Assembly (NCBI RefSeq): GCF_001441165.1
Contig: NZ_CP013126.1
Coordinates: forward strand, 2,075,551-2,139,550
Source of the DNA: Acidipropionibacterium acidipropionici
Lineage (GTDB): Bacteria; Actinomycetota; Actinomycetes; Propionibacteriales; Propionibacteriaceae
Direction of reading: 5' to 3'
DNA length: 64,000 nt
Of this stretch, positions 2,687-46,998 are shown piece after piece. The first letter of the stretch is position 1. Every line of letters starts with the position of its first letter. The notes below the pieces were generated by a model. That model searched no databases. It saw nothing but the letters and a program-made list of their open reading frames with translations, and was not told the origin of the DNA. The translations under genes and the position numbers were made by a program.

Positions 2687-3358
2687 ATGACCAATGAACG
2701 CACTGTGAAGGGCGTGCTGGGCACCAAGCTCGGCATGACCCAGCTGTGGGACGAGAACAATCGCATCGTCCCCGTGACTGTGATCCAGGCCGGGCCCTGT
2801 GTGGTGACCCAGGTGCGCACCCCCGAGACCGACGGCTACTCCGCCGTCCAGCTCGGTTTCGGAGCCGTCAAGGCCAAGAACGTGACCAAGCCGGAGGCCG
2901 GCCACTTCGAGCGTGCCGGGGTCACCCCCCGCAGGCACCTCGTCGAGCTGCGCACCGCCGACGCCTCCGAGTACACCCTCGGCCAGGAGATCACCGCCGA
3001 CGTCTTCGAGACCGCTGAGGTCGTCGACGTCACCGGGACCACCAAGGGCCATGGAACCGCCGGCGTCATGAAGCGCCACGGTTTCAAGGGTCTGCGCGCC
3101 ACCCACGGCGTGCACCGCAAGCACCGCTCCCCGGGCTCCATCGGTGGATGCTCCACCCCCGGCAAGGTGCTCAAGGGTATGAGGATGGCCGGCCGGATGG
3201 GCAATGACCGGGTCACCGTCCAGAACCTGCCGATCCACTCGGTTGACGCCGAGCGCGGGATCATCCTGGTCCGGGGCGCCGTTCCCGGCCCGAAGGGCTC
3301 CCTCCTCGTCGTCCGCAGCGCTGCCAAGCAGGCCGCCAAGAATGGGGATGCCGCATGA
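2687..3358 (+). CDS. rplC: 50S ribosomal protein L3
   Basis: L3 is an early assembly protein near the peptidyl transferase centre. The protein has 223 residues, with the family signature region (MKRHGFKG... [12 protein letters not shown]) in the middle. ATG 2687 is preferred over an in-frame GTG at 2672 because GTGAGG lies 9 bp upstream of it and the product then begins [19 protein letters not shown], where L3 proteins begin. The stop overlaps the rplD start by 4 bp, so the two are probably translationally coupled. Confidence 0.96.
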
Positions 3359-4248
3359 GCGAGAACAAGACCATTGACGTGCTGACCGCGAAGGGCAAGA
3401 AGTCCGGCTCCGTCGAGCTGCCGGGCGATGTCTTCGACGTGGCCACCAACGTCCCTCTGATCCACCAGGTGGTTGTGGCCCAGCAGGCCGCCGCCCGTCA
3501 GGGCACCCACTCCACCAAGACCCGCGGTGAGGTCGCCGGCGGCGGCAAGAAGCCGTGGCGCCAGAAGGGCACCGGCCGTGCCCGACAGGGTTCCACCCGC
3601 TCCCCGCAGTGGGTCGGCGGTGGCACCGTGTTCGGCCCCCAGCCGCGTTCCTACGCCCAGCGCACCCCCAAGAAGATGGTGGCCGCCGCCCTGCGCGGTG
3701 CCCTGTCCGACCGGGCCCGCGACGGGCAGATCTTCGTGCTGGCCTCCCTCGTCGAGAGCGACAAGCCGTCGACCAAGGCCGCCAAGTCGGTGCTGTCGAA
3801 CCTCGGAGACCTCAAGAAGGTCCTCGTCGTCCTGGACCGCTCCGATGAGATCTCCTGGCTGTCGGTGCGCAACCTGGCCGAGGTGCATGTCATCGCCGCC
3901 GACCAGCTCAACGCCTACGACGTCCTCAAGGCCGACCAGCTCGTCTTCACCCGCGCCGCCCTGGCGGCCTTCGTGGGCGAGGACGCTGCCGAGGCCGAGG
4001 TCCCCGAGACCGACGAGGCCGACCTGCACCCCTTCGGTGCCGACTCCTTCCGCGGCGACAACCCGCCCGAGGGATTCGACATCAAGGGCAACGAGAGCTC
4101 GATGAAGTTCCACACCCCGGAGTCGCCCTGGTACGGACGCACGATCGCCGAGGTCTGGTTCGCCACCACCCAGGCCGCCGAGGCCGCGGGATTCGTCAAC
4201 GCCGTCAAGTCCGACAAGGGCTCTGCTGCTGAGGAGGACGCCAAGTGA
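3355..4248 (+). CDS. rplD: 50S ribosomal protein L4 with C-terminal extension
   Basis: L4 lines the peptide exit tunnel and in enterobacteria autoregulates the S10 operon. Residues 1 to about 220 are ordinary L4, including the tunnel loop with [18 protein letters not shown]. At 297 residues the protein is 75-90 residues longer than usual. After a short acidic linker, residues about 225-281 form a compact module containing [29 protein letters not shown] and AAEAAGF. It resembles a small C-terminal module (GNxxSxxYHxPxSxxYxxTxAEVWF) that I recall from other actinobacterial proteins; its function is unknown to me. It overlaps rplC and rplW by 4 bp each. Confidence 0.96.
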
Positions 4249-4553
4249 GCGATCTCAAGATCCGCGACCCGCGCGACATCATCCTGGCGCCGGTCGTCTC
4301 CGAGAAGAGCTACGGCCTGCTCGACCAGAACGCCTACACGTTCCTGGTGAAGCCGACCGCCAACAAGACCGAGATCAAGATCGCCATCGAGCAGATCTTC
4401 GACGTCAAGGTCACCGCCGTGAACACGATGAACCGCAAGGGCAAGACGCGCCGCACCCGTGCCGGGGTCGGCAAGCGCAAGGACACCAAGCGCGCCATCG
4501 TGACCGTGGCCGAGGGAGATCGCATCGATATCTTCGCCGGCCAGGGCGAGTGA
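4245..4553 (+). CDS. rplW: 50S ribosomal protein L23
   Basis: L23 sits at the exit of the peptide tunnel and docks trigger factor and SRP. The 102-residue protein starts at a GTG that overlaps the rplD stop by 4 bp (GTGA). It carries the family pattern PVVSEKSY near the N-terminus and the basic loop RKGKTRRTR. rplB follows after 33 bp with its own AAGGA ribosome binding site. Confidence 0.96.
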
Positions 4554-4586
4554 GCCCGAGGCTAGGAAGACAAGGAACGAAGATCC

Positions 4587-5423
<837 letters not shown>

Positions 5424-13011: not shown

Positions 13012-13968
13012 ATGAGCACAGTGACTGAGGCGGCCGGCCGACGGACCGGAACCGCCCGCAGAAGGACAGGCGGCGCGACCACCGGGCCCTCCATCCCCGC
13101 GGGAAGGCGGCCGGTGGACTGGTCCGGCCCGGGCTTCGTCATCCCCTTCGTGGTGCTGGGGCTGATCTTCTTCGTGTGGCCGGTGATCTCGGGATTCGTC
13201 CTGAGTTTCACCAACCACAGCCTCACCGGCCTGGGCAATACCTTCGCCGGTCTGTCCAACTACGGCGAGGCCCTCACCGACCCGCAGGTCTGGGAGACCT
13301 TCGGGCAGACGGTGATGTTCACCGTCATCTCCACCATCCCGCTGGTGCTGATCGGGCTCATCATGGCCCTTCTGGTCAACACTGGCGTGTGGGGCCAGTG
13401 GTTCTGGAGGCTGTCCTTCTTCGCCTCCTACCTGCTGCCCTCGGCCGTGGTGGCGTCGGTCTTCGTGTGGATCTTCGCCTCCGACATCGGGCTGGCCGAC
13501 TCCTGGACAGCCGCTCTGGGGATGGATCCGGTGGGCTGGCTCACCAAGGAGTCGACCGCGCTGTGGACCATCGCCGGGGTCACCGTCTGGTGGACGGTCG
13601 GATTCAACTTCCTGCTGTTCTCCTCGGCCCTGCAGGGGATCCCGCTGGCCATGTACGAGGCCTCGATGTTCGACGGCGCCGGCGCCTGGCGGCGTCTGTT
13701 CTCCATCACGCTGCCCCAGCTCAAGAGCATCACCGGGGTCATCGTCGCCCTTCAGCTGCTCGCATCGCTGAAGGTCTTCGACCAGATCTACATGATGACC
13801 GCCGGGGGCCCGAACGGATCGACCAGATCGATCCTCGAGTACATCTACGACACCGGCTTCACGAACTACCGGATGGGCTACGCGTCGGCCATCTCCTACG
13901 TGTTCTTCGCGATCATCCTCATCCTGTCGCTGTTCACCTACCTGCCCGGAAGGAGGGGTCAGCGATGA
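13012..13968 (+). CDS. Sugar ABC transporter permease, MalF-like
   Basis: An inner-membrane permease of the carbohydrate importer. The 318 residues have a cytoplasmic N-terminal tail of about 40 residues and then six transmembrane segments, beginning GFVIPFVVLGLIFFVWPVIS. The EAA loop that contacts the ATPase reads YEASMFDGAGAWRRLFSITLP. GGAGG precedes the ATG. It overlaps the next permease by 4 bp. The specific sugar is unknown. Confidence 0.92.
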   Translation: MSTVTEAAGRRTGTARRRTGGATTGPSIPAGRRPVDWSGPGFVIPFVVLGLIFFVWPVISGFVLSFTNHSLTGLGNTFAGLSNYGEALTDPQVWETFGQTVMFTVISTIPLVLIGLIMALLVNTGVWGQWFWRLSFFASYLLPSAVVASVFVWIFASDIGLADSWTAALGMDPVGWLTKESTALWTIAGVTVWWTVGFNFLLFSSALQGIPLAMYEASMFDGAGAWRRLFSITLPQLKSITGVIVALQLLASLKVFDQIYMMTAGGPNGSTRSILEYIYDTGFTNYRMGYASAISYVFFAIILILSLFTYLPGRRGQR

Positions 13969-14903
13969 GCACCGCCGCAACGGAGCTGTCCGCACCCGCC
14001 ACCACACGCATCTCCGCGAGAGCGGCCGAAAGGGCCGTGCGCAAGGAGGAGAACCGCATCAAGCGGCGCCTCATGCTCGGGGACTCCAAGGCCCCCCGGG
14101 TCGTGGTCTTCGCGATCCTGCTGGTGATGTCGGTGGCATGGCTCATCCCGATCCTGTGGGCCATCGACACCTCCCTCAAGACCGAGCCGGACGCCGAGGC
14201 CTCGGCCTCCTGGATCCCGCGGCACGGGTTCACCCTGAGCGCCTACGTCGACCAGTTCGCCAACGGCCACATCGGGCGCTGGATGCTCAACTCACTGGGC
14301 ATCGCCCTGGCGGTGATGGTGATCACGGTCATCGTCTCCGCGATGGCCGCCTACGCCTTCTCCTGCACCCGGTTCCGCGGCCGAAACGGTCTCTTCGCCG
14401 TGACCATCGCGGCCATCATGGTGCCCTCGCAGATCCTGATCGTGCCGCAGTTCCAGCAGATGCAGACCCTCCACCTGGTCGACACCGCAGCGGCGGTGGT
14501 CTTCCCGCAGGTGGTCCAACCGGTGATGATCCTGGTGCTCAAGAGCTTCATGGATCAGCTGCCGCGAGAGCTGCTGGACGCCGCCCGGATCGACGGCGCG
14601 AGCGCCTGGCGGGTGTTCTGGTCGGTGGTGATGCCACTGTCCCGCTCGATCATCTCGGCGGTGGCGATCTTCGTGTTCATCGGGGCCTGGAACAACTTCC
14701 TGTGGCCCTTCATCATCACGAACAACCCGTCGCTGATGACCCTTCCGGTCGGGCTGTCGACCATCAAGAACGCCTACGGCGTCCAGTACGTCTCCGGGAT
14801 GGCCTCAGCCATGATCGCGTCGATCCCGCTGCTGGTGATCTTCATGCTCTTCCAGCGCAAGATCGTGGCGAGCGTCGCGATGACCGGCATGGCCACCACC
14901 TGA
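13965..14903 (+). CDS. Sugar ABC transporter permease, MalG-like
   Basis: The partner permease of the same importer. The 312-residue protein begins MSTAATELSAPATT at an ATG overlapping the previous stop (ATGA), with AGGAGG 9 bp upstream. It has six transmembrane segments and the EAA loop LLDAARIDGASAWRVFWSVVMP. The last genes of the regulon end here; family A repeats start 20 bp after the stop. Confidence 0.93.
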   Translation: MSTAATELSAPATTRISARAAERAVRKEENRIKRRLMLGDSKAPRVVVFAILLVMSVAWLIPILWAIDTSLKTEPDAEASASWIPRHGFTLSAYVDQFANGHIGRWMLNSLGIALAVMVITVIVSAMAAYAFSCTRFRGRNGLFAVTIAAIMVPSQILIVPQFQQMQTLHLVDTAAAVVFPQVVQPVMILVLKSFMDQLPRELLDAARIDGASAWRVFWSVVMPLSRSIISAVAIFVFIGAWNNFLWPFIITNNPSLMTLPVGLSTIKNAYGVQYVSGMASAMIASIPLLVIFMLFQRKIVASVAMTGMATT

Positions 14904-42222: not shown

Positions 42223-43065
42223 CTACTCCGGGCGTGTCGCGGGCAGGTCAACGGCCGGACGGGCCGGCGTCGATCGGGTGGCCGGCCCGCCACGGCTCCC
42301 CCAGGACGCCTTGCGTGCAGCCCTGCGCAGCACTCTCATGATCGGCTGGCCGAGGAGGGTGATGAGCACCACATTGGTGAGCGCCCGGCCCAGATTCCAG
42401 ACCATCGATGTGGCGATGTTGAACATCACGAAATGCTTGAGGTTGGTGCCGATCGACGCCTGCGCGGAATAGCTGATCGACGTCGACAGGCCCAGACTGA
42501 AGGGCCAGAAGGCGAAGTCCATCAACCAGCCGTAGCCGAATGCGGTGACGAACCCGTAGCCGGCCAGCATGACGGTCTCAGCCCAGCCCGACAGTCTGGG
42601 CAGCAGGCCGGCGCCGAGGCCGACGAAGCCGGCGGCGACCATCTGGTAGGGCAGCCAGGGGCCGAATCCGGCCGTGAGCACGGCCGAGGTGAGGAAGGTG
42701 GTGGCGCCCAGCAGGAATCCCATGCCGGCGCCGAAGACCCGTCCCCCCAGGATGATGAGCAGGAAGATGAACTCGATTCCCGCGGTGCCGGCGCTCAGTG
42801 GTCGCAGGGCGGCCCCGCATGCGGTGAGGACGCCGAGCATCGCCAGGGCCTTGGCGTCGATACCGGCCGATCCGAGGTCCGAGAGCAGGATGACGACCCC
42901 GAGCGCCAGCACCCCGGCCAGCAGGAAGGGCGCCCGCGACTCGTAGTCGGCCTGGGTGCCGGGGTTCAGCAGGAGCGGCCAGGTGAAGGCCAGCAGGCCG
43001 AGCACGGCGGTCAGCACCAGGATGATCCGGGAACTGGTCGGGGTGGCCAGGGCGGTGACTCTCAT
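42223..43065 (-). CDS. ECF transporter substrate-binding (S) component, probably for a corrinoid
   Basis: An integral membrane protein of 280 residues with about six to seven hydrophobic helices (IILVLTAVLGLLAFTWPLLL and onward) and a basic C-terminal tail. The pattern GFGPWLPYQMVAAGFVGLGAGLLP is typical of ECF S components. The ATG overlaps the ATPase stop by 4 bp. Operon order and the upstream cobalamin riboswitch suggest that it binds cobalamin or a precursor. The ligand is inferred from regulation, not from residues. Confidence 0.82.
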   Translation of the reverse strand: MRVTALATPTSSRIILVLTAVLGLLAFTWPLLLNPGTQADYESRAPFLLAGVLALGVVILLSDLGSAGIDAKALAMLGVLTACGAALRPLSAGTAGIEFIFLLIILGGRVFGAGMGFLLGATTFLTSAVLTAGFGPWLPYQMVAAGFVGLGAGLLPRLSGWAETVMLAGYGFVTAFGYGWLMDFAFWPFSLGLSTSISYSAQASIGTNLKHFVMFNIATSMVWNLGRALTNVVLITLLGQPIMRVLRRAARKASWGSRGGPATRSTPARPAVDLPATRPE

Positions 43066-44774
43066 CGGCTGCCCCCCTCCGCCGGCTCCTTGAGGGCACG
43101 CGCCACCTCGTCGGGGGTGAGGACGTCGGCCGGGTGGAAGACCTTCGCCATCTGCGGGGAGAAGGCCGGCGAGGAGGTGCAGACGGACCGGGTGGTGCCG
43201 TCGGCGACGATCTGGCCGTCGGCCATCACCACGGTGCGGTCGCTGGAGGCCGCGGCGAACTCGACGTCGTGGGTGCTGATGAGCACGGCGGCGGGGCTCC
43301 CGGGCAGGCCGGGTCCCGAGCCGTCGGCGATGCCACGCACGATGCGCGCCAGCTGGGCCTTCATGGCGTAGTCCAGGCCGCGGGTCGGCTCGTCCAGCAG
43401 CACCACCGTGGGTCGGGCCGCCAGCTGGATGGCCAGCACCAGGGCGAGCCGCTGGCCCTCCGACAGGTCCCGGGGGTCGCGGTCGGCCGGCAGGCCGGCG
43501 CCGAGCCTGTCGAGGATGGACGCCGTTGTTCCGGGGGCCACCTCGGACTCCCGGTCGGCCTGCTCGCACTCGTCGCCGACGCTGGGCAGGTAGAGCAGGT
43601 CGGCGGCCGCCTGGGGCACCAGGCTCACCAGTCGGCGGGCCTGCTCGGGGGAGGCGGTGCGCGGGTCCGACCACTCCTGTGCTCCGGATGCCGGGCGCGC
43701 CGCCGGGGCGGGGTTCGACCTCACCCGCACCGAGCCGGAGCTGCGGGTCGCCCCCTGCACGGCCCACATCAGGGAGGATTTCCCGGCCCCGTTGCGTCCC
43801 ATCAGGGCGGTGACGGTTCCGGACTGCAGCGCCAGGTCCACATGATCGACGGCGTCCAGGTCGCCGTAGGAGACGCAGAGGTCCTCCAGCTCGGCGACGT
43901 CGTCGTCCGGATCCGCGCTCCAGCTGAGGGCCTCGCTGGGTTCGGGGGCGCTGCGCGCCGGAATCCGCTCCTCGTCGTGCACCCGGCGACGGGCCCGCCG
44001 CACCGACAGGGGCACCGAGTCCCAGCCGAGGAGGCGCGACAGCTGCGCCAAGGGAGGGGTGACGTCGGCCTTCAGAAGTACCTCGGAGGGGTCCCCCTGG
44101 ACGGCCGAGCCGTCGCCGGGCAGCCAGATGACCGTGTCGGCGGCGTGCATCACCCGTTCGAGTCGGTGCTCGGCCAGCACCACCGTGAGCCCGACGTCGT
44201 CGACCAGTGTGGTGATGGAGGCCAGGACGTCCTGGGCGGCGGTCGGGTCCAGGGCGCTGGTCGGCTCGTCCAGCACCAGGATGCGGGGCTGGGCGGCCAG
44301 CACGGAGGCGATCGCGACCCGCTGCTGCTGGCCTCCCGACAGGTCCAGCAGGGGGCGGGAGCGGAGGTCGGCGATGCTCAGCAGGTCCAGGGTCTCCTCG
44401 ACCCGCTTGCGCATGATCGACGGCGAGATGCCCAGCTGCTCCATGCCGTAGGCGATCTCGTCCTCGACAGTGTCGGTGACGAAACCCGCCATCGGATTCT
44501 GGCCGACCACACCCACCACATCGGCCAGATCCCGGGGGCGGTGGCCGCGGGTGTCGCGGCCGGCGACGGTCACGGTGCCCTCCAGGCGGCCGCCGGAGAA
44601 GTGCGGCACCAGGCCGTTGAGGGCGCCCAGCAGGGTGGATTTCCCGGCACCTGTGCGCCCGATCACCAGGGCCAGGTCTCCCTCCTGGACGGCCAGGTCC
44701 AGATGGGACAGGACGGGCGCCTCGGCGTCGGGGAGGGTGATGGAGACGTCGTCGAGGCGGATCGCCGGGGTCAT
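43062..44774 (-). CDS. ECF transporter ATPase, fused A-A' (CbiO-type pair)
   Basis: The energising component of the transporter, 570 residues with two ABC ATPase halves. The first half has Walker A GRTGAGKST, signature LSGGQQQR and Walker B ILVLDEPTSALDP. The second half has Walker A GRNGAGKSS, a diverged signature (LSEGQRLA) and VVLLDEPTRGLD. The halves are joined by an acidic linker of about 60 residues. ATG 44774 overlaps the T-component stop and the protein stop overlaps the S-component start, so the three are coupled. Confidence 0.9.
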   Translation of the reverse strand: MTPAIRLDDVSITLPDAEAPVLSHLDLAVQEGDLALVIGRTGAGKSTLLGALNGLVPHFSGGRLEGTVTVAGRDTRGHRPRDLADVVGVVGQNPMAGFVTDTVEDEIAYGMEQLGISPSIMRKRVEETLDLLSIADLRSRPLLDLSGGQQQRVAIASVLAAQPRILVLDEPTSALDPTAAQDVLASITTLVDDVGLTVVLAEHRLERVMHAADTVIWLPGDGSAVQGDPSEVLLKADVTPPLAQLSRLLGWDSVPLSVRRARRRVHDEERIPARSAPEPSEALSWSADPDDDVAELEDLCVSYGDLDAVDHVDLALQSGTVTALMGRNGAGKSSLMWAVQGATRSSGSVRVRSNPAPAARPASGAQEWSDPRTASPEQARRLVSLVPQAAADLLYLPSVGDECEQADRESEVAPGTTASILDRLGAGLPADRDPRDLSEGQRLALVLAIQLAARPTVVLLDEPTRGLDYAMKAQLARIVRGIADGSGPGLPGSPAAVLISTHDVEFAAASSDRTVVMADGQIVADGTTRSVCTSSPAFSPQMAKVFHPADVLTPDEVARALKEPAEGGSR

Positions 44775-46084
44775 CGGCCTCTCCGATCGGGGTGATTGGG
44801 CCGCGGCTGGGCCGGAAGATCCCGCTGCCGTGGCTGTGCCGGAAGATCCCGCTGCCGCGGCTGGGCCGCACGGGCCCGCCGTGGTGGGGAGGTGAGGAAT
44901 GCGGGTGCGGCGACCAGGGCCGCGATGCCCAGCATGAGCGGGTGCAGCACCGGCCACTCCAGCGGGCTGGTCGACGGGTTGACGGCGGCCGGGGCGAGGC
45001 TGTTGAGAGCAGCGGTGCAGATCACCACCAACAGCCCGCAGCCGATCACCGCGATCGACCGTGGGGTCCACCGGTGCGGCCGGTAGCGGGTGACCCGCAG
45101 GCGTCGTCCCGAGGACCGCAGGCCGGCGACCGCACCGATGGCGCTCAGACCGAGCACCACCGCGCCGACCAGCTGTGCCGACAGGCGCGGCGCCGACGCC
45201 CACCGCGGATCGGTGAGGAGCAGATAGACGCCGATGACCAGGCCGCACATCGACGCCACCAGCCCGGTGGCGGTGCCGGGGCGGACCCTGCGGTTGTCGC
45301 GGGTCCGCCCGAATCCCCGCGACTCCATCGCCCGGGACAGGTCCATCGAGGACTCCACGGCGTCCTGGAGTACGGGGATGAGGATGCTGGTGAGGGCCCG
45401 CAGGCCCTTGGCGCGTCCGCCGCGCAGCCGACGCGCCCGCCGGACCCGGGCCACCGAGACGATGAGTTGGGGGAAGACCGACAGAGCGATGACGACGGCC
45501 ACCGAGATGTCGTGGAGGGCGGCCGGCACGGATTTGAGGACGCCGCGGGGATCGGCGAGAGTGTTGGCGGCCCCGAAACAGGCCAGCATGGTGGCCAGGC
45601 GCAGGGCGTCGTAGCCGGTGGTGGCCAGCCCCTCGGCGGTCACCGGGCCGCCGAGGGTGACGCCCAGCGGCAGTGGGATCCGGGGCAGCCGGACCAGGAC
45701 GGTGCCGGTGTCCGAACCGCCCAGCAGGATCTGGAAGACCATCCGGATGATGATCACCGACAGCGCCAGGGTGATGTAGGTGCCGGCCGAACGGGCCCAG
45801 GGGGCGTCGCTGCGCCGGTTGGCGACCACGAGTGCCAGGGCGGCGATCACCAGGACAATGAGCAGTGGACTGGTGGTCATGCTCACCGCGGCGCCGGTGG
45901 CCAGCGCCCAGGCCCACCAGGCCACCGGATGGGTGGGCGCCCCGCCGGCCGTGCGTGCCGGCCTGTTCGTGCCCCCGGCGCGTCCCGGCCGGGCCTCCAG
46001 CGGTCCGGCTCCGGGGGAGGGGCGGCGTCCGGCCCCGTCATCGGTGATGACGGGGTCGGCGGGACGTTCCAGCAGCCGGGGCAC
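44771..46084 (-). CDS. ECF transporter transmembrane (T) component
   Basis: Couples the ATPases to the S component in the membrane. The 437-residue protein has a Pro-rich N-terminal tail and several membrane helices. The cytoplasmic coupling region contains SRAMESRGFGRTRDNR, the usual Ala/Ser-Arg-Gly motif. It ends in a short tandem repeat (RQRDLPAQP twice), which corresponds to a 30-bp DNA repeat. It starts at GTG 46084, 8 bp after the upstream stop. It is larger than most EcfT proteins (about 250 residues), partly because of extra C-terminal membrane helices. Confidence 0.85.
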   Translation of the reverse strand: MPRLLERPADPVITDDGAGRRPSPGAGPLEARPGRAGGTNRPARTAGGAPTHPVAWWAWALATGAAVSMTTSPLLIVLVIAALALVVANRRSDAPWARSAGTYITLALSVIIIRMVFQILLGGSDTGTVLVRLPRIPLPLGVTLGGPVTAEGLATTGYDALRLATMLACFGAANTLADPRGVLKSVPAALHDISVAVVIALSVFPQLIVSVARVRRARRLRGGRAKGLRALTSILIPVLQDAVESSMDLSRAMESRGFGRTRDNRRVRPGTATGLVASMCGLVIGVYLLLTDPRWASAPRLSAQLVGAVVLGLSAIGAVAGLRSSGRRLRVTRYRPHRWTPRSIAVIGCGLLVVICTAALNSLAPAAVNPSTSPLEWPVLHPLMLGIAALVAAPAFLTSPPRRARAAQPRQRDLPAQPRQRDLPAQPRPNHPDRRGR

Positions 46085-46092
46085 CGCGCCGG

Positions 46093-46746
46093 TCAGTTCC
46101 GGCGCCGGCGGACGACGAGGTAGACGACGACGCCGATGACGATGACCGCCGCGACGATCCCGACCCCCCAGGCGGTCGAGGAGGAACTGCCGCCGGAGTC
46201 GGAGGAGGCGGCGGGGGAGGCCGATGAGGACGGCGTCGAGGAGGACGCGTCGGGCACCTCGGCGGTCAGGGACAGCGTCTTCGGGGTGCAGGACTTCTCA
46301 GAGGCCTTGTTGTAGCACCAGGCCTCGATGGATCCCTTGACCGGCTTCGACTGGTCGGCGGCCTTCTGGGAGTAGGTGAAGGTCTTGCCATCGGTGGAGG
46401 TGTAGTAGTTCCAGTACTGCCCGTTGAATTTCGCGGGGCAGGGATTCGGCTTCTTGTCGAGGGAGCAGATCATGCCCTTGGCGTCCTTGCCGACGTCGAC
46501 CCCCGCGGACTTCAGGGCCGCCTCGCCGGTGCCGAAGTCGGTGGCGCAGCTGTTGGCCACCACCGATCCGTCGGAGTAGGTGACGTAGACCCACACATTG
46601 CCGGCCTTGAGGCAGTCCTGCGGGGTGGCGGCGGGGAGTCCCTGGGCGGACGCCGAGGCGGCACCAGAGGCGAGCATCGCGGCACACAGCAGCAGTGCTG
46701 AGAACAGAGCGGCCAGACGCTGTAGGGGATGAGCTGGGCTGTGCAC
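46093..46746 (-). CDS. Secreted, membrane-anchored protein with DUF4430/SCO2322-like domain
   Basis: The first gene of the ECF operon. The 217 residues show a signal peptide (LAALFSALLLCAAMLASGAASASA), a domain of about 130 residues with WVYVTYSDGSVV, GMICSLDKKPNPC and GQYWNYYTSTDGKTFTYS, a Ser-rich spacer, a transmembrane helix and a basic VVRRRRN end. The domain resembles the actinobacterial family that includes intrinsic-factor-like DUF4430 proteins near ECF operons. An external corrinoid-capturing role is inferred. It starts at GTG 46746 with AAAGAGG about 7 bp upstream. Confidence 0.72.
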   Translation of the reverse strand: MHSPAHPLQRLAALFSALLLCAAMLASGAASASAQGLPAATPQDCLKAGNVWVYVTYSDGSVVANSCATDFGTGEAALKSAGVDVGKDAKGMICSLDKKPNPCPAKFNGQYWNYYTSTDGKTFTYSQKAADQSKPVKGSIEAWCYNKASEKSCTPKTLSLTAEVPDASSSTPSSSASPAASSDSGGSSSSTAWGVGIVAAVIVIGVVVYLVVRRRRN

Positions 46747-46863
46747 GACGTGCCTCTTTCACTGGCGGTCCCGGTCGCGATCCGCGTCCGGTCCAGCCCG
46801 CGGACCCATCCGTGACCTCGACGGAATTGGGGGGCGGTGCGAGACGTGACGTCGACGCGGCGA

Positions 46864-46998
46864 CCCCTGGGTCGGAGTCCTCGCGGGCGGTCCGGCTCCG
46901 CCGCGGTGCGGCGTCACGGTTGCGGGTCAGCTCCGGTCTTTCACCGGATTCTCCCAGGGGGCCGTACCACGATCGGTGGACCGCCCCCGGACAAGGAC
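46864..46998 (-). promoter_or_regulatory. Cobalamin-type (AdoCbl/B12) riboswitch upstream of the ECF operon
   Basis: On the minus strand the RNA contains GGGAG, GGTG and the core GCTGACCCGCAACCGTGA (core CCCGCAACCGTGA at 46926-46914). The B12-box-like GAGCCGGACCGCCC (46898-46885) follows. Its 3' half pairs perfectly over 9 bp with the upstream GGGCGGTCC (46986-46978), forming the P1 helix. Just downstream, CCCAGGGG (46871-46864) could pair with CCCCTGGG (46960-46953) inside the aptamer, giving a possible switch helix. Confidence 0.85.

Follow-up and report, generated by a model that had tools for sequence, protein, structure and literature searches.

The closest described counterparts of the system reported here belong to the transcobalamin-like clade of SLBB domains, in which Burroughs, Balaji, Iyer and Aravind in 2007 grouped the C-terminal domain of transcobalamin with secreted bacterial proteins that often carry toroids and are encoded alongside a CbiO-like ATPase and a CbiQ-like protein, predicting scavenging of B12 or its precursors (PMC1796856). 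Further points of comparison are the vertebrate carriers transcobalamin, haptocorrin and intrinsic factor; ECF-CbrT of Lactobacillus delbrueckii, a proven B12 transporter of the energy-coupling factor (ECF) type (PMC5997447); and the acI Actinobacteria, whose ECF module, lying behind cobalamin riboswitches, was suggested to be a putative cobalamin transporter (PMC5301498). We describe here a four-gene operon within a 64,000-nucleotide stretch (the window; positions 2075551–2139550 of a 3.65 Mb single-contig genome, G000) of Acidipropionibacterium acidipropionici, encoding a surface protein (R) followed by the T component (T), the fused double ATPase (AA) and the S component (S) of an ECF importer. 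Since fold, riboswitch, gene order and relatives agree, we put at roughly three in four the probability that the operon is a dedicated corrinoid capture-and-import system, as had been proposed in an earlier note made from the sequence alone; what the analysis shows are the genes, their order, the riboswitch, the predicted folds and the co-occurrences, whereas the corrinoid ligand, its hand-over and the direction of transport are what we infer.

Like the transcobalamin-like SLBB clade, characterized by secreted or anchored beta-grasp proteins, often with a toroid on either side, and by CbiO/CbiQ-like genes (PMC1796856), the locus encodes a secreted, anchored protein in one operon with CbiO/CbiQ-type genes (T and AA downstream). 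It differs in that the clade was reported, besides animals, from low-GC Gram-positives, planctomycetes and euryarchaea, whereas R is actinobacterial; in that a riboswitch and an S component are present, neither of which appears in the examined text of PMC1796856; in that the bacteria described there usually lack key B12 synthesis enzymes, whereas the present host carries B12 synthesis genes; and in that the R family, unlike the clade, escapes the Pfam model PF14478. With the vertebrate carriers it shares the predicted beta-domain fold and, in bacterial fusions, the toroid-plus-beta plan, whereas the beta-type domain of the window stands alone, is membrane-anchored and is coupled to an ECF importer instead of an endocytic receptor. 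ECF-CbrT is likewise an ECF-type ATP-binding cassette (ABC) transporter, carrying cobalamin and cobinamide (PMC5997447), whereas here T, AA and S lie in one operon with a surface binder; homology of S to CbrT, or a tie to any solved S structure, was not shown by a search of the S profile against the Protein Data Bank (PDB), which gave no match. The acI module resembles the present one in its cobalamin riboswitches and ECF genes, and a surface binder is not mentioned in the examined text of PMC5301498. Among the papers listed by the literature searches, which did not cover most subscription papers, no earlier description of the R family, toroid partner and riboswitch and no paper on SCO2322 was found. 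The operon is a new variant of previously predicted B12-scavenging systems; the earlier note, whose account of the R-T-AA-S operon stands, had missed both that prediction and the alpha/alpha toroid of relatives described below.

Results

The predicted fold of R places it with the transcobalamin-like beta-grasp proteins. In the AlphaFold2 model, built on a 24-row alignment, residues 41–160 have predicted local distance difference test (pLDDT) values of 93–98 by blocks of ten, and the first 19 places in a Foldseek search with the model are taken by the beta domains of transcobalamin, haptocorrin and intrinsic factor and by the bacterial structure 3u7z. VIA-align 2 gave Z scores of 9.6–10.4 to the 15 top entries, drawn from the same group, and 5.0 to the next fold; 89–96 residues were aligned to that group with a root-mean-square deviation (rmsd) of 2.8–4.0, the sequence identity to the vertebrate carriers being 9–18%. 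The outcome is thus the opposite of the lack of structural similarity to cobalamin-binding domains that the earlier note had named as evidence against its proposal. Helices at residues 7–26 and 194–216 of the model, the latter followed by a basic tail, fit the signal peptide and single anchor already read from the gene; no LPXTG motif was seen in R.

At the level of sequence, R exceeds no Pfam cut-off and is filed outside Pfam DUF4430 (PF14478) by hidden Markov model, which we take to stand for the SLBB transcobalamin-like clade: this model matched neither R, nor any of the 19 members of the R alignment (A2), nor anything in the genome at E ≤ 10. The NCBIfam model SCO2322_fam (NF040672) scored R at 20.6 bits, its cut-off being 85, and was matched at E ≤ 0.1 by all 19 members (best 1.6e-9). 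The previous description of R as DUF4430/SCO2322-like accordingly holds only in part at the sequence level, while the predicted fold supports it. Matches of 4 of the 19 homologues to PF14283 (best 3.4e-4) are taken to be to their low-complexity or anchor tails. When profiles were compared, R (26 domains) and DUF4430 (25 true domains) were colinear over 100 columns with E 6.4e-5 and a probability of 64, as against E 0.41 and a probability of 0.1 for the control comparison of R with the toroid profile; the DUF4430 profile in turn reached 3u7z and transcobalamins weakly in the PDB (0.014, 0.077 and 0.24).

Distant loci add to this remote match. Among 296 genomes across the phylum, PF14478 was matched in 51, S in 73 and both in 15, of which 12 have DUF4430 and S no more than 4 kb apart on one contig (in G353, one of the 12, DUF4430 comes after S). 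Ten distant actinobacterial regions were inspected, eight chosen for nearby DUF4430 and S matches, that of G205 for S alone and that of G315 for DUF4430 alone on its contig. The order DUF4430-AA-S was found in seven, with a toroid after S in six of them, T in four by profile and additionally in L200 by reading its open reading frame (ORF), and in all seven a riboswitch over the Rfam cut-off upstream on the same strand (six RF00174, one RF01482 adenosylcobalamin). Two more, L197 and L198, have R-T-AA-S plus a toroid (the R match of L198 is weak, E 2.9e-5) and match the leader model R1 described below at E 6e-13 and 1e-4, respectively; L199, the last of the ten, is a short contig on which just DUF4430 and a riboswitch were seen. 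R and DUF4430 thus replace each other in related operons, which provides independent support for the remote profile match. A large secreted repeat protein, beta-propeller-like by eye, lies between riboswitch and DUF4430 in L196 (1448-3994) and L200 (1074-3755) and is perhaps a further part of the receptor.

The B12 riboswitch that had been placed ahead of the operon is borne out by R1, a covariance model built from the leaders of 23 relatives, excluding the window, and searched against the window and 80 named loci; the latter are the best 80 of 358 by similarity and therefore biased to Propionibacteriaceae. R1 matched at E < 1e-8 in 53 of the 80 loci, always on the operon strand; as 23 of these had built the model, the matches independent of it are those in 30 of the other 57 loci and in the window (Table 1). 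Changes on both sides were seen at 10 of 18 consensus pairs in the alignment of the 23 relatives (A3). A permissive Rfam search also placed RF00174 on the window leader at 46876-46951 (E 3.7e-5), but its 27.5 bits fall short of the 31.5 required for gathering, so that a whole-window Rfam scan at gathering listed nothing; in relatives L101, L109, L110 and L131 the leaders coincide by coordinates with RF00174 matches over the cut-off. A first motif scan allowing three mismatches gave scattered chance matches and was discarded, all counts being taken from R1. Between aptamer and start codon lies a conserved CCGTCGAGG..CGG hairpin, presumably P13-like, which is the probable expression platform: the window leader contains the motif CGTCG[ATC]GG, and so do 49 of the 53 relatives at no more than 120 nt from the aptamer, 39 of the 49 with a 4-bp stem by a simple test, against an expectation of about 0.008 per locus in shuffled sequence.

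All four genes were confirmed, on the minus strand and in the order surface protein, T, fused AA and S, at the positions that the earlier note had given. The gap of 8 nt between R and T and the 4-nt overlaps at T/AA and AA/S make R-T-AA-S one transcript unit by anatomy. An EcfT protein and two ABC ATPase domains (PF02361 and two PF00005 stretches) occur in this one operon, AA also matching TIGR04520 (ECF_ATPase_1) at E 1.7e-75, under that model's cut-off. S itself (P0002) has no Pfam match at E ≤ 0.1; PF12822 (ECF_trnsprt) is matched by 15 of the 18 members of its alignment (A1), and S comes after T-AA in relatives too.

Table 1 Features of the operon and its leader in the window.
Feature	Position	Strand	Basis
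Cobalamin-type riboswitch aptamer core	46882..46956	-	R1 covariance model, 76.7 bits, E 4.5e-13
Probable expression platform, a conserved CCGTCGAGG..CGG hairpin	46810..46824	-	Motif in relatives
R, secreted single-anchor surface protein, 217 aa, with predicted transcobalamin-like beta-grasp domain	46093..46746	-	AlphaFold2 model, PDB fold matches, family alignment
R, beta-grasp domain	about 46294-46626	-	AlphaFold2 model
R, anchor helix	46099-46167	-	AlphaFold2 model
T, ECF T component (EcfT/CbiQ-like), 437 aa	44771..46084	-	PF02361 CbiQ, E 3.6e-10
AA, ECF fused double ATPase (A-A'), 570 aa	43062..44774	-	PF00005 ABC_tran, E 2.3e-46, two stretches
S, ECF S component, 280 aa, predicted corrinoid translocator	42223..43065	-	Relatives' PF12822 matches; place after T-AA

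Gene order was counted in those 63 of the named loci whose sequence extends 5.8 kb or more upstream of S. All 63 have AA and 62 have T; R lies upstream of T in 55 of them and next to it in 53. A toroid is present in 44 and the riboswitch in 52, and these 52 all have R as well; three loci have R without riboswitch, and eight have neither R upstream of T nor riboswitch (association of riboswitch and R, Fisher 4e-8, shared ancestry being ignored). Three of these eight exceptions are P. australiense, P. acidifaciens and T. australiensis, and in two of the eight (L097 and L149) R lies on the opposite strand beyond S. Across 147 genomes of the family, S was found in 102, R in 79 (74 when the tail-only matches in G018, G041, G059, G082 and G120 are dropped, as in the co-occurrence count) and the toroid in 79. 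R is present in 72 of the 102 genomes with S and in 2 of the 45 without, and the toroid in 76 and 3, respectively; because the tests ignore shared ancestry, the P values of these co-occurrences are too small.

Between riboswitch and R, relatives often encode a secreted protein, mostly of about 310–570 residues. Pfam searches with 21 such proteins, five of them fusions with R, gave matches to the squalene-cyclase C-terminal domain in 16 and to prenyltransferase in 14, which together with matches to Cobalamin_bind identify this partner as an alpha/alpha toroid; such a toroid is the other half of the transcobalamin plan. Toroid and R share one open frame in 13 of the 80 loci, with the toroid first in seven and R first in six. 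One fusion, L096, was modelled (36 rows) with a pLDDT of 93.3, and the top 15 Foldseek entries for this model are transcobalamin, haptocorrin and intrinsic factor, aligned over their full length with E of 1.7e-11 to 6.7e-8, ahead of terpene cyclases. The window operon has R alone, the three toroid matches of the host lying elsewhere in its genome (1.05, 1.06 and 1.077 Mb).

Related loci occur in the host and in relatives. A second ECF T-AA-S set with a divergent S lies at 1.061-1.078 Mb of the host genome (L073:6548-17499 and L074:1-6549). Upstream of it are encoded two surface proteins, one of them of 357 aa, a leucine-rich repeat protein of 1211 aa and a toroid behind a match to the R1 riboswitch; downstream, by eye, lie genes of the MoxR, DUF58 and von Willebrand types and one for a further protein resembling toroids. 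The 357-aa protein (L074:539-1612) is R-like by eye, but scored 2.9 bits with the R profile and was not counted as R. Two transposase-like ORFs inside this second B12 region (L073:82-1395 and 3418-4191, by eye) suggest that it was rearranged. Elsewhere in the host, a paralogue of R (L072:12709-13362) is immediately followed by a toroid gene (13494-14579) and lies downstream of a Peripla_BP_2 protein, whose best NCBIfam match is the F420-0 transporter model, under the cut-off, with BtuF weaker, and of permease- and ATPase-like genes behind a riboswitch. In the Cutibacterium group, G035 has a toroid-R fusion and a separate R away from the ECF locus, behind their own riboswitches: in L204, two divergent R1 riboswitches precede the fusion, which ends in LPHTGV (50-2578, minus), and an R-like domain with leucine-rich repeats, which ends in LPSTGV (3030-4934, plus; both by eye). 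In G082 of the same group, L201, L202 and L203 each have an R1 riboswitch (52–54 bits) and a toroid match with equal scores; L201 consists of riboswitch, secreted toroid and an SGNH-like protein ending in thrombospondin type-3-like repeats (by eye), a layout resembling the riboswitch regions of C. acnes (PMC9600381). Apart from R and toroids, a host riboswitch match at L072:5039-5110 lies upstream of DUF305 (gene at 5189) and polyferredoxin-like Fer4_5 (6066) genes, which are not obvious B12 genes, and an RF00174 riboswitch of 72.9 bits (L077:3979-4243, minus, at 3.447 Mb) lies upstream of two methylmalonyl-CoA mutase-like genes (by eye), probably a B12-dependent enzyme under a B12 switch.

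Discussion

Several observations weigh against the operon being a corrinoid capture-and-import system. With regard to R, the best Foldseek E is modest (1.2e-3), and no sequence link between R and transcobalamin was found by Pfam, hmmsearch against the PDB or phmmer; by minimum free energy alone, the window leader folds no more stably than shuffled sequences (z -0.14), the riboswitch claim resting on covariance models. S occurs without R in 30 of the 102 genomes; the remaining five of the eight exceptional loci, with T-AA-S and neither R upstream of T nor riboswitch, are from Cutibacterium; and in 36 of the 51 DUF4430 genomes S was not matched at E ≤ 1e-15. As a fold the toroid is unspecific, with terpene cyclases, GH76 enzymes and B12 carriers all at Z of about 20–23, and the toroid profile matched squalene-hopene cyclase in the PDB at 2.4e-31, far ahead of transcobalamin at 0.0084; Cobalamin_bind (PF01122) was matched by only 2 of the 21 toroid proteins (best 1.4e-5). 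The L096 model arranges its two domains differently from holo-transcobalamin (rmsd about 18), a difference for which modelling without ligand could account. G003, the closest congener in the sample, combines R, S and the riboswitch but gave no toroid match, and 18 genomes with S and R have no toroid detected; the idea of an obligate toroid partner was therefore dropped, and the toroid is regarded as common, not obligatory. Finally, the host itself has several B12 pathway genes, so that a need for import is not obvious.

As to the cargo, the host genome encodes CbiM (TIGR00123, E 1.2e-77) and CbiQ (TIGR02454, E 1.5e-46), both over the cut-off, so that a second cobalt importer is unneeded, and S of the window has no CbiM match in NCBIfam. 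Moreover, no CobI/CbiL was matched at E ≤ 1e-20 in 26 of the 72 family genomes that have S and R, some of these being incomplete and others 98–100% complete (G004 and G005, 99–100%); such genomes would have no use for cobalt in de novo synthesis. Of the 82 genomes with CobI/CbiL, 55 have S (P 0.59) and 46 have S plus R (P 0.07), neither being a clear association, and ancestry again being ignored. On the grounds of the separate CbiM/CbiQ and of the S-plus-R genomes without CobI/CbiL, cobalt import was set aside, its supply by the operon being unlikely, and the cargo is most simply a corrinoid.

A cobamide building block, such as the lower ligand dimethylbenzimidazole or an early precursor, would suit control by a cobalamin riboswitch as well as any other B12-related cargo, and the specificity of S is unreadable from sequence, its profile having no match in the PDB. 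We nevertheless consider a building block an improbable cargo, since R and the toroid resemble proteins that grip the whole corrinoid, the fusions repeat the two-domain plan of transcobalamin, and the system also exists in genomes without a CobI/CbiL match. It might alternatively be argued that R and its toroid or leucine-rich-repeat relatives are B12-regulated adhesins or cell-wall proteins linked to the ECF genes by co-regulation only, given that some relatives are long LPXTG-type surface proteins, such as the R-like leucine-rich-repeat protein of L204 (by eye), and that riboswitch regions of C. acnes lie upstream of 'hypothetical adhesin protein fragments' (PMC9600381); the adjacency of R and T in 53 of 63 loci, the preference of R for genomes with S and the occupation of the same place by DUF4430 proteins in distant loci render this quite improbable. 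It is very improbable that the ECF complex serves B12 synthesis by bringing in cobalt (or nickel) and that R binds metal at the surface, because T's match to CbiQ, the occurrence of cobalt transporters under cobalamin riboswitches (PMC3766115) and the title of 3u7z as a putative metal-binding protein are opposed by the host's own CbiM and CbiQ, the S without CbiM match, the 26 of 72 genomes without CobI/CbiL and the fold neighbours of R, which are mostly cobalamin binders.

Returning to corrinoid capture and import, the following mechanism is predicted. By the general on/off logic of riboswitches, low intracellular cobalamin would leave the leader riboswitch unliganded and the genes on. Membrane-tethered R, as the counterpart of the transcobalamin beta domain, would then bind corrinoids outside the cell, by itself or, in organisms that make a toroid, as one half of a clamp closing over the ligand. 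A mechanism for both forms of this step is offered by the behaviour of split transcobalamin, whose isolated beta domain binds cobalamin and cobinamide, and whose separately made alpha and beta domains join only on addition of cobalamin (PMC5599065): R alone would be a catcher, and toroid plus R a clamp. R would subsequently pass the corrinoid to S, which would topple and, driven by ATP binding and hydrolysis in the T-AA motor, release it into the cell, steps adopted from what is generally known of ECF transporters (including PMC10368641). The cargo could be either an entire cobamide or one of its late precursors, for instance cobinamide. In a broader proposal, on which we are evenly divided, actinobacteria would use a general two-piece transcobalamin: at the cell surface a corrinoid would be enclosed between a secreted toroid and an anchored beta-grasp protein and then handed to an ECF S component dedicated to it, so that the pair would serve as an extracellular receptor for an ECF importer; R and DUF4430 proteins would be interchangeable in it, and the riboswitch-controlled toroid genes of the Cutibacterium group would belong to the same machinery.

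To our knowledge, little of B12 uptake in Gram-positive bacteria has been mapped, and depictions of ECF importers usually show no binding protein outside the cell. The system would give an ECF importer a binding protein resembling the human B12 carriers, and its naturally split and fused versions would provide material for studying how such a clamp works. It also offers a testable role for a poorly annotated gene family present in 74–79 of the 147 sampled genomes of the family, and suggests a function for the riboswitch-controlled surface genes of Cutibacterium, whose role was reported to be unknown (PMC9600381).

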